64,000 nt of DNA from Clostridium pasteurianum DSM 525 = ATCC 6013 (GTDB taxonomy: Bacteria; Bacillota; Clostridia; Clostridiales; Clostridiaceae), in the NCBI RefSeq assembly GCF_000807255.1, contig NZ_CP009268.1:3440384-3504383 (forward strand), given 5' to 3'. The translations under genes and the position numbers were made by a program. The notes under the pieces were generated by a model. It searched no databases, had not been told where the DNA came from, and saw only the letters and a list, made by a program, of their open reading frames with translations. Shown one piece after another: positions 32,237 to 39,411 of this stretch; within the stretch, counting starts at the first letter, position 1; every line of letters begins with the position of its first letter.

Positions 32237-32265
32237 TTGAATAAAGAAATTTTTTGTGTTAAAAT
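32237..32265 (+). promoter_or_regulatory. Promoter of the panBCD leader RNA
   Basis: A -35 TTGAAT (32237-32242), a 17-base spacer and a -10 TAAAAT (32260-32265). The transcript would begin near 32271 and run through a structured leader into panB. Confidence 0.6.
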
Positions 32266-32270
32266 ATTTT

Positions 32271-32490
32271 CGGGTAGTATCTTAAAGAACTGCACCAAAA
32301 GTGTTATTAATTTTAAACTTTCTGCTCATATCCTCTGAATGAGACAGCTAAAAAGAGATTAGTCCTAATTAATTTTAGGATTTTAAATAATTAGATTTAT
32401 ACTAAATTCTATAACCCTTTTGCGGTCTTTTTCACACATTAACACTTTTCAGGCATTTTGGGATATTCTATCCTGTACTATGTGTGTTAT
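32271..32490 (+). ncRNA. Long structured leader or independent small RNA before panB
   Basis: About 220 bases with several long-range pairings: AAAAGTGTTA (32297-32306) pairs with TAACACTTTT (32440-32449), framed by TGC/GCA. The 5' end (GGGTAG) can pair with CTATCC near 32468. Inside are small hairpins (CTCAT/ATGAG; TCCTAA/TTAGGA). A competing pairing, CACACAT (32433-32439) with ATGTGTG (near 32480), precedes a T-run. One long closing stem around a large bubble resembles 6S RNA in outline; competing stems suggest a riboswitch. A pan RNA motif is known before panB in Firmicutes, but I cannot confirm its bulged A residues here. Identity is open. Confidence 0.4.
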
Positions 32491-32643
32491 TTTTCCTATT
32501 AAATTTTATGTATTTTTAAGATCCTTAATAGAAATTGTATGCCGTTTAATCTACATATAAATTTTTCATTATTGATATTTTTTAACAACGCATAGATTAT
32601 TACTTTCTCAATATTAAAAAATAATTTTTTGGAGGTATATATT

Positions 32644-33471
32644 ATGAAAAATACTTCTTCAACTTTTGTAGCTGCAAAACAAAAGGGAGAAAAATTGGCA
32701 ATGCTTACAGCCTATGATTACTCTACAGCAAAAATTATAGATAATTCTGGCATAGATGGAATTTTAGTTGGAGATTCTTTAGGAATGGTGTGTTTAGGAT
32801 ACAAAGATACTCTAAGTGTAACTATGGAAGATATGATTCATCACACTAAAGCTGTGGCAAGAGGTACTAATAATGCATTATTAGTTAGTGATATGCCTTT
32901 CATGTCCTATCAAACCTCTGTGTATGATGCTATAAAAAATGCTGGGAGACTTATCCAAGAGGGAAATGCCGAAGCTGTTAAGCTTGAAGGTGGAGCTTCA
33001 GTACAGGAACAAATTAAAGCAATTGTAAAAGCACAAATTCCGGTAATGGGTCACATAGGTTTAACACCTCAATCTGTAAATATTTTTGGTGGATTTAAAG
33101 TTCAAGGTAAAGCAGATGAAGATGCTAAAAAGATTATAGAGGATGCTAAAATTTTAGAAGATTCAGGAGTTTTTTCAATAGTACTAGAGGGGATTCCTTC
33201 TAAACTAGCAGAAATAATAACAAATTCTGTATCGATACCAACTATAGGTATTGGTGCTGGAAAATACTGCGATGGACAAATTCTTGTATACCAAGATATG
33301 ATCAGTATGTTCCCAGATTTCAAGCCTAAATTTGTTAAATCCTACGCTGATGTAGGGGATTCTATGGCTTCTGCCTTTAAAACATACATTCATGAGGTTA
33401 AAAATTCTGTTTTCCCTGACGATGAGCATAGTTTTAAAATGAATGATAAAGTGCTAAGTAAACTATATTAG
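32644..33471 (+). CDS. panB: Ketopantoate hydroxymethyltransferase
   Basis: First step of pantothenate (vitamin B5) synthesis: transfers a hydroxymethyl group from methylenetetrahydrofolate to ketoisovalerate. The 275 residues include [12 protein letters not shown] near the start, the metal-site [11 protein letters not shown] (near 45) and KLEGG (near 115), GHIGLTPQS and [20 protein letters not shown]. The start is the ATG after TTTGGAGG; the TTG inside that site is not used. It is the first gene of panB-panC-panD, the classic order. Confidence 0.96.
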
Positions 33472-33553
33472 ACTTAATAATAATTGCTATTAAAATAGAC
33501 TAATTTATTTCATGTAATATTCAAAAAAATATACCTGAGAAAGGATGTTTAAA

Positions 33554-34411
33554 ATGGAATTTGTACAAACTATCCAAGAAACAAAAAATATAATAAAAGA
33601 ATGGGAAAAAAGTGGTTTTACAATAGGTCTTGTACCTACTATGGGTTTTCTTCATGAAGGTCACGAGAGTTTAATAAAAAAAGCTGCCTCTGAAAATGAC
33701 AAAGTAGTGGTAAGTATATTTGTAAATCCAATTCAGTTTGGTCCGACGGAAGATTTAGATACCTATCCCAGAAACTTAGATAGGGATAAAAAAGTCTGTG
33801 AAAATGCAGGAACCAATTTAATTTTCAATCCTGCTCCTGAAGAAATGTACTTTGATAACGCAGTTACCTCAGTAACTGTTGGAGAGCTTACAAATGGTTT
33901 GTGCGGTTCTAAACGTCCTATTCACTTCCAAGGGGTATGTACTGTAGTTTCAAAGTTATTTAACATAGTTACTCCAGATAAAGCCTATTTTGGAGAAAAA
34001 GATGCACAGCAATTAGCCGTTATAAAAAGAATGGTTCGTGATCTTAATTTTGATATAGATATAATAGGCTGCCCTATTGTAAGGGAAGAAGATGGACTGG
34101 CAAAGAGTTCAAGAAATACTTATCTTTCTGACAGTGAAAGAAAAGCTGCCCTTGTTCTAAATGAAAGTCTTAAGTTAGCTAAAAAAGCTTTAGAAAATGG
34201 AGAAGTTCACGCTTCTAAATTAACTCACGTTATATCTGAAAAAATAAATAGTGAACCCCTTGCCAAAATTGACTATATCGAAATAGTAGATAGTATAGAT
34301 TTAAAACCTGTTTGTAAAATAAGTTCATCTATTTTAGTTGCTATAGCTGTATATATAGGTAAAACAAGACTTATAGATAATTTCACTTGGAATACTAATG
34401 ATAATAAATAA
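33554..34411 (+). CDS. panC: Pantothenate synthetase
   Basis: Joins pantoate and beta-alanine using ATP. The 285 residues include the nucleotide-binding [11 protein letters not shown] (residues ~28-38, HxGH type), [32 protein letters not shown] (near 150) and the KMSKS-like [10 protein letters not shown] (near 190). The start ATG follows GAAAGGATG by 6 bases, so the upstream in-frame codon is not used. It lies 82 bases after panB. Confidence 0.96.
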
Positions 34412-34434: not shown

Positions 34435-34818
34435 ATGAAACTAAGCATGTTAAAATCAAAAATACACAGAGCTACCATTACAGAAGCTAAACTCAATTAT
34501 GTAGGAAGCATAACAATCGATATAGATCTCATGAAGGAAGCAAATATACTAGAATATGAAAAAATACAAGTAGTTAATATAAATAATGGAAGTAGAATTG
34601 AAACCTACGTTATTGCTGGTGAAAGCGGCAGTGGAGTTATATGCCTTAATGGTGCTGCTGCTAGATATGCACAACCAGGAGACAAGGTTATATTAATGAC
34701 TTACTGTGAAATGGAAGAAGAAGAAGCAAAACTTCATAAACCTGTTGTAGTATTTGTAAAAGATGATAACTCTATTTCTGAAATTACCACTTATGAAAGA
34801 CATGGCGAAATAAAATAA
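34435..34818 (+). CDS. panD: Aspartate 1-decarboxylase
   Basis: Makes beta-alanine from aspartate, completing supplies for PanC. The 127-residue proenzyme self-cleaves between Gly and Ser in [10 protein letters not shown] to form the pyruvoyl cofactor; both residues are present. [20 protein letters not shown] is the conserved C-terminal core. The start ATG comes 9 bases after GGAGGA; the family's usual MLKSKIHRA begins four residues later. It lies 23 bases after panC and is followed by a strong terminator. Confidence 0.96.
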
Positions 34819-38852: not shown

Positions 38853-39164
38853 AAGATATCTCCCTGCCTAAATAAATTTATAAAATTTATCAACATAATC
38901 ACTATATGATATTTTAGCATAAAAAATATGTTATTGGTTACTTTTTTTATCCATTGTAGAAATATGTTATATTATATTAATATTTTATAAAATAATTATT
39001 TTACTGATGAAAAAACGAAATAATTATTATTAAAAATATTAATTTTATTCCTATATTTATTATTAATTTATTAATATTTTATAGAATAATTATTGATAAT
39101 ATAATTTTAAACTTTTTATATTTACAGCTACTATTCATTAATGTATAATCATAAACAATATAAA

Positions 39165-39411
39165 GCAATGAGCAGAAGTAGTAGGGATAAGTGAAATTTT
39201 CAGAGAACCGATGATGCTGTGATTTCGGTAATTTCAAAATCTTGAACTCGTCTGTGAGCTGTCTCCTGAATTTATTAGTAAGGCAGAACGTGGTCCTCCG
39301 TTACAAGGATAGATGGTAATTTGCCATTGAAAAAGTGAGTTCATAATAGAACTAATTAGAGTGGTACCGCGGGTTAGCCTCGTCTCTTTTGTTGAGACGG
39401 GCTTTATTTGT
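39165..39411 (+). promoter_or_regulatory. T-box leader, leucine type, with terminator
   Basis: A tRNA-sensing leader of the T-box class before leuA. Stem I carries the conserved CAGAGAACCGATGATGCTG-like elements and a specifier-loop segment TTGAACTCG in which CTC (39247-39249) would read leucine. The 14-base antiterminator T-box AGAGTGGTACCGCGG is at 39358-39372. The terminator follows: CTCGTCTC (39379-39386) with GAGACGGG (39394-39401) and a T-rich run. Uncharged tRNA-Leu should stabilise the antiterminator and turn leuA on. The upstream part of the gap (38853-39160) is AT-rich and contains a motif shared with 21701. Confidence 0.93.

Follow-up and report, generated by a model that had tools for sequence, protein, structure and literature searches.

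The panBCD operon of Clostridium pasteurianum DSM 525 is preceded by a pan-motif leader that probably controls these genes with the help of a long-range alternative fold specific to Clostridiaceae, a fold that, judging from the comparisons below, would here have become a leader attenuator. The leader lies in a 64,000-nucleotide stretch (the window) that is part of a 4.35-Mb single-contig genome. In its published description (Weinberg et al., 2010; PMC2864571), the pan motif consists of a pair of hairpins in tandem, with bulged A's, in the 5′ UTR of genes for pantothenate synthesis. RNA-seq shows that panB leaders containing it are transcribed in Paenibacillus (PMC5670726) and Bacillus methanolicus (PMC4342826).

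Table 1. Layout of the pan leader and the panBCD operon in the window
Feature	Position	Strand	Basis
Sigma-A-type promoter TTGAAT-17-TAAAAT with extended −10 TG	32237–32265	+	Pattern match; 83% identical in sister species L005
Expected transcription start	~32271	+	Promoter position
Pan motif RF01749, complete	32271–32351	+	Covariance model match
Pan hairpin 1, bulged A's	32271–32296	+	Model alignment and fold
Linker; 32297–32306 (AAAAGUGUUA) is the 5′ arm of the long-range stem	32297–32321	+	Pairing analysis
Pan hairpin 2, bulged A's	32322–32347	+	Model alignment and fold
Terminator-like hairpin GUCCUAA-UUAAUU-UUAGGAU followed by UUUAAAU, −6.7 kcal/mol	32362–32381	+	Fold
DUF2520 (panG-like) gene remnant, no open frame	32429–32540	+	blastn and alignment versus shuffles
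Rival terminator-like structure, CACACAU (32433–32439)/AUGUGUG (32480–32486) and T-run	32433–32494	+	Fold; same stem in L005
Anti-hairpin-1/linker element, 3′ arm of the long-range fold (partner 32272–32306)	32440–32473	+	Pairing; homologous site covaries in relatives
panB	32644–33471	+	Pfam/NCBIfam
panC	33545–34411	+	Pfam/NCBIfam
panD	34435–34818	+	Pfam/NCBIfam

The leader matches the full-length pan model (RF01749, model positions 1–92) at 51.4 bits, against a gathering cut-off of 36.2 (cmscan), contains two tandem hairpins with the conserved bulged A's, and has pantothenate genes downstream. That the element belongs to a catalogued family, the pan motif, had not been foreseen in an earlier sequence-only reading of this DNA; both pan hairpins and the hairpin at 32362–32381 were absent from its description. 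That reading had proposed a switch for pantothenate synthesis, which holds insofar as this is a cis-regulatory panBCD leader with two exclusive long-range folds, the identity of the partner being unexpected. The Rfam covariance search that it suggested returned the pan motif and disposed of the resemblance to 6S RNA that it had also entertained: the window leader has no 6S match (RF00013 and relatives) at the gathering threshold or at E ≤ 10. The likeness is superficial, a long stem with a bubble in the MFE fold, and 6S RNA identity was rejected. The element sits in a leader and is not a separate gene. The promoter was correctly described as a good one of the sigma-A type. Between it and the pan motif lie 5 nt, and most of it is retained in the sister species, although matches to its consensus are not rare (11 found versus 9.1 expected).

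The hairpin at 32362–32381 occupies the place of clearer terminators in relatives (L004, L139, L148, and L151) and may be an older or additional expression platform. Its T-tract looks eroded; the sister species (L005) retains part of the hairpin but no T-tract. Six related loci (L004, L139, L148, L151, L003, and L172) carry intrinsic terminators ~20–40 nt after hairpin 2 and before the panG-like gene. The loops of these terminators often contain AUAGCU, the complement of the AGCUAU that directly follows hairpin 2, and this pairing is a possible short-range antiterminator. At L026 and L015, hairpins enclose the Shine-Dalgarno sequence just before the panG-like gene (e.g., GGUACACUUCCGUUGGAGGUGAUACC in L015), suggesting that expression platforms differ by genus. 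Elsewhere in the window, a strong T-box leader (RF00230, 130 bits) was found at 39159–39390 on the + strand.

Positions 32297–32306 (AAAAGTGTTA) pair with 32440–32449 (TAACACTTTT) by ten Watson-Crick pairs out of ten, as the sequence-only reading had noticed. This is the sole 10-mer pairing of its kind in the 220 nt, and any such pairing occurs in 4.1% of dinucleotide shuffles. It extends through all of hairpin 1 (32272–32306 with 32440–32473), with the partner site ~130–170 nt downstream; the resulting duplex of −27.6 kcal/mol was matched by none of 1000 shuffles of the partner. The 220-nt fold as a whole has z = −3.05, with 0/200 shuffles as good. The rival stem noticed in the same reading was also present: CACACAT (32433–32439) pairs with ATGTGTG (32480–32486) around an inner hairpin (GGGAUAUUCUAUCCU), directly before the T-run TTATTTTT (UUAUUUUU as RNA; 32487–32494). 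The two stems had been described as overlapping competitors. They share no bases; they cross, and for this reason they are mutually exclusive as nested folds.

Taken by itself, the rival stem region does not reach significance (z = −1.44), and its loop is large, which implies a weak terminator. In L005 the same stem shows one A-U to G-U change that preserves the pairing. When the competing states were scored by separate folding of the two parts, the long-range fold was favored by 7.3 kcal/mol in the window and 5.8 kcal/mol in L005; the energetic gain of the window's long-range fold over local folds is unexceptional, as large a gain being reached by 48/300 shuffles. Folds of the growing transcript form hairpin 1 first and switch at ~200 nt, ahead of the T-run. 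Set against what an attenuator requires, the antiterminator-type fold is well supported, whereas the terminator stem is weak and known in two species.

The downstream arm lies in what is left of a dead panG-like gene. Most Clostridiaceae relatives have an intact DUF2520 gene of ~285 codons (Pfam DUF2520 and Rossmann domains) between the pan motif and panB, and its operon and domain mark the product as a putative ketopantoate reductase. Non-coding DNA of the window and of L005 aligns with nt 293–457 of the intact gene (blastn E 3e-8 and 6e-13, respectively). The remnant in the window, 32429–32540, corresponds roughly to nt 304–405 and is 68.75% identical to L046 over 112 nt (E 3e-8). Alignment scores were 42.5 (window) and 43.5 (L005) against shuffle means of 21–22, with 0/500 as high (window remnant: shuffle mean 21.0, maximum 33.5), so that the similarity is collinear with the intact gene, lies at the matching place in the operon, and exceeds that of shuffled sequence. 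A whole-genome search found no PF10728 anywhere in the window's genome. DUF2520 is absent from this genome (G000) and from that of L005 (G003) and is present directly after the pan motif in the sister species G002 and G004. PF02558 proteins occur in all genomes tested, with strong full-length ones in those that lack DUF2520, which makes it plausible that a classical PanE replaced the lost panG-like gene.

The remnant has not simply drifted. Between the window and L005, 32429–32492, which takes in the rival stem with its T-run as well as the anti-hairpin-1 site, is 87% identical and almost gap-free, whereas identity is 59%, with many gaps, over the next 138 nt and 57% at the four-fold sites of panB. 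The comparison with the four-fold sites indicates that this core is under selection, and plain gene decay was rejected on these figures. The exact leader architecture with this remnant occurs in two species only (window and L005). In aligned intact genes the rival stem is missing, with CAAATAT or CAGATAT at the position of its 5′ arm; as seen from the two species, the stem may have arisen after gene death. In other remnant lineages (L036, L138, and L155) a different window pairs better than the remnant. Genus g25 contributes four remnant leaders from genomes without a DUF2520 gene (G130, G132, G133, and G134); remnants in this genus retain the anti-linker yet are not the best-pairing window. 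Genome G006 carries the pan motif twice, at L003 ahead of an intact panG-like gene and at L021 ahead of a panG-like remnant, after which come panC and panD.

The homologous codons of intact panG-like genes also pair with pan hairpin 1 and the linker, which places the origin of the pairing, as far as sequence comparison can tell, before gene death. Among 63 Clostridiaceae operons (species) with an intact gene, scanned with 60-nt partner windows, the best downstream partner lay at −75 to −20 nt of the conserved His-Pro codons in 54, where 8% would be expected. The site falls at about codons 100–115, with His-Pro at about codon 109. This position was reached in 3–4 of 63 by reversed or reverse-complemented queries and in 25 of 63 when hairpin 1 was given a shuffled linker. 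Many of the linker matches are perfect 9–12-mers. Matched arms include GAATTGTTTA/TAAACAATTC (L001), AAGTGTTT/AAACACTT (L004), TTTGTTTAT/ATAAACAAA (L149), CAGACTTTTT/AAAAAGTCTG (L012), TTTATATTTGAA/TTCAAATATAAA (L045), and TTTTTGATGATA/TATCATCAAAAA (L168); the register of pairing varies between clades, with complementarity maintained.

Comparisons across species showed, at the sequence level, that the linker and the panG-like codons coevolve in these Clostridiaceae relatives. Swapping linkers between species loses complementarity (z = −11, a value that ignores phylogeny). With one species per genus (20 genera), the one swap test that takes phylogeny into account, own linkers gave −9.1 kcal/mol and swapped ones −5.4 kcal/mol (0/2000). 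An 8-pair helix anchored on the conserved linker UGUU and the codon position was 93.8% paired in 20 sequences, compared with 37–49% when slid, its four middle pairs being partly selected for by the anchoring and its flanking pairs not. Its covariation score was 0.307 against 0.139 ± 0.026 (0/500). Pair 5/34, for example, is U-A in 11 sequences, G-C in 8, and U-G in 1, and departures in the anchored core were G-U (11) and never A-C (0). Unanchored alignments showed no excess of G-U over A-C (76:67; 19:27 with one species per genus), and a regular expression for the UGUU motif recognized only 32 linkers and was of no diagnostic value. Covariation in related leaders, whose lack the sequence-only reading had said would refute a switch, is present, with the partner mostly inside an intact gene and not in the leader.

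Codon choice gave a further view of the same site. In synonymous-codon shuffles that drew on each gene's own codon pool, the hairpin-1 site had a mean z of −1.94, with 37/63 at p ≤ 0.05, and six other places in the gene had mean z of −0.17 to +0.19; by this measure, codon choice is tuned to pairing at the hairpin-1 site only. A weaker site for hairpin 2 lies ~34 codons upstream (mean z −1.17, 21/63; controls flat). It covers panG codons q−56 to q−33, where q is the His-Pro codon, as in L175, L027, and L139. The order hairpin 1, linker, hairpin 2, anti-2, anti-1 is nested and thus fits one long cis fold. Chance pairing was rejected for the family by the position, swap, and synonymous-codon tests; for the window alone, the energetic gain is unremarkable.

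Outside Clostridiaceae, no fixed site was found at 53 panG-first, 16 panB-first, and 8 panC-first loci, and mean z in panG at the panG-first loci was about 0 to −0.6. A universal feature of the pan motif was rejected on this basis, and the lack of a comparable site at the 53 panG-first loci points to a feature of the lineage. In this phylum set (L195–L283), a DUF2520 (panG-like) gene follows the pan motif in 53 of 89 loci, panB in 16, and panC in 8; Weinberg et al. (2010; PMC2864571) name only panB, panC, and aspartate decarboxylase genes downstream. Clostridiaceae and close relatives have a second class of pan loci, in which the motif immediately precedes a gene of ~190–250 codons (L010, L013, L016, L022, L164, L167, L169, L171, L173, L177, L180, L181, L183, L184, L187, and L188). 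The two such genes tested (L171 and L013) encode ECF transporter substrate components (panT-like). At second-class loci the Shine-Dalgarno sequence GGAGG abuts or overlaps the base of hairpin 2, an arrangement that looks like translational control. No consistent long-range site was found at the 14 loci scanned with a pan motif before panT-like ECF transporter genes. At L032 the pan motif (at 1501) is followed by a first long frame at ~+563, of the bile-acid-symporter family; the protein resembles the pantothenate transporter PanS at 274 bits, below the 400-bit cut-off.

These observations suggest how the window leader might work. In one state, the pan hairpins would be formed and 32433–32494 would be free to fold as the terminator-like stem before the T-run. 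In the other, hairpin 1 and the linker would pair with 32440–32473, breaking both hairpin 1 and the rival stem, and transcription would continue. A putative regulator, a metabolite or protein reporting enough pantothenate or CoA, would most likely stabilize the pan hairpins; a dimeric protein was suggested as the partner of the motif by Weinberg et al. (2010; PMC2864571). The first state would then most likely be OFF and the second ON, giving feedback control. The ECF-transporter genes, whose Shine-Dalgarno sequence directly follows the pan motif, would point the same way, toward OFF when bound, in that a stable hairpin 2 would impede initiation there. In relatives with a live panG-like gene, mRNAs that had passed early attenuation would have their pan fold opened by pairing with the coding sequence. 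Remnants that would still carry the partner site occur in three gene-loss lineages, namely the window's genus, g25, and a second locus in g3. The fuller proposition, that nested coding-sequence partners coevolved for both hairpins, that the three lineages retained the site after losing the gene, and that it became the expression platform of the window, we regard as evenly poised.

We consider it unlikely that this is an ordinary pan leader, with the hairpin at 32362–32381 or nothing as its platform and 32429–32540 as a decaying gene whose complementarity is a functionless inheritance from conserved codons (Gly-Ala and Ser-Ile-His-Pro). Such a leader would agree with the terminators just after hairpin 2 in relatives, and the hairpin-1 match does fall partly on codons of residues conserved in all intact genes. 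However, it would leave unexplained the covariation of linker and codons across 20 genera, the restriction of codon tuning to the hairpin-1 site, and the conservation of the remnant well above neutral sites.

The complementarity data would also fit pairing in trans, in which a short terminated pan leader is freed as a small RNA and pairs with the panG-like coding sequence of full-length mRNAs; the clear terminators of some leaders would release a leader of ~110–130 nt. In the window, by contrast, the target gene is gone and the site is retained in its own leader, which favors pairing within one transcript, as does the nested order of both sites. Action in trans thus appears distinctly improbable. 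We give still less credence, and indeed very little, to an inverted repeat maintained by template switching between the arms instead of by selection on RNA. The many perfect linker matches and the lack of a G-U excess in unanchored alignments are what such a process might leave, but the site keeps to one codon position in 54/63 species with null controls elsewhere, loci of equal gene order outside the family lack it, and anchored departures are G-U and never A-C.

Nothing beyond hairpin 2 is included in the Rfam model (RF01749), in which the linker counts as unconserved. In these operons, by contrast, a partner that coevolves with the linker and hairpin 1 lies several hundred nucleotides downstream, in coding sequence or its remnant. 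In the open-access literature, we found no later work on the mechanism of the pan motif, only Weinberg et al. (2010) discussing the motif itself, and as far as we searched there, its long-range partner was previously undescribed. The arrangement resembles riboswitch-type attenuators, in which a strand of the 5′ element either closes the sensor or opens the terminator; it differs in that the antiterminator arm of the window leader descends from protein-coding sequence and any ligand is putative. Pairing of a 5′ UTR with a distant part of its own message is familiar from the fold-back of hok and the 5′-3′ UTR pairing of icaR. To our knowledge, neither of these pairings involves a sensor RNA family or the synonymous codons of a first gene.

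The pan motif has been without a known ligand or mechanism since 2010, and the two 10-nt arms offer a precise, mutable prediction that makes a mechanism testable. Judging by the long-range partner, the regulatory unit appears to extend beyond what the Rfam model covers. It would be unusual for a sensor RNA to be linked to the synonymous codons of the gene that it targets, and likewise for a dead gene to be kept for its RNA and not its protein. If this reading is true, a protein-coding stretch doubled as part of a switch and then became one.
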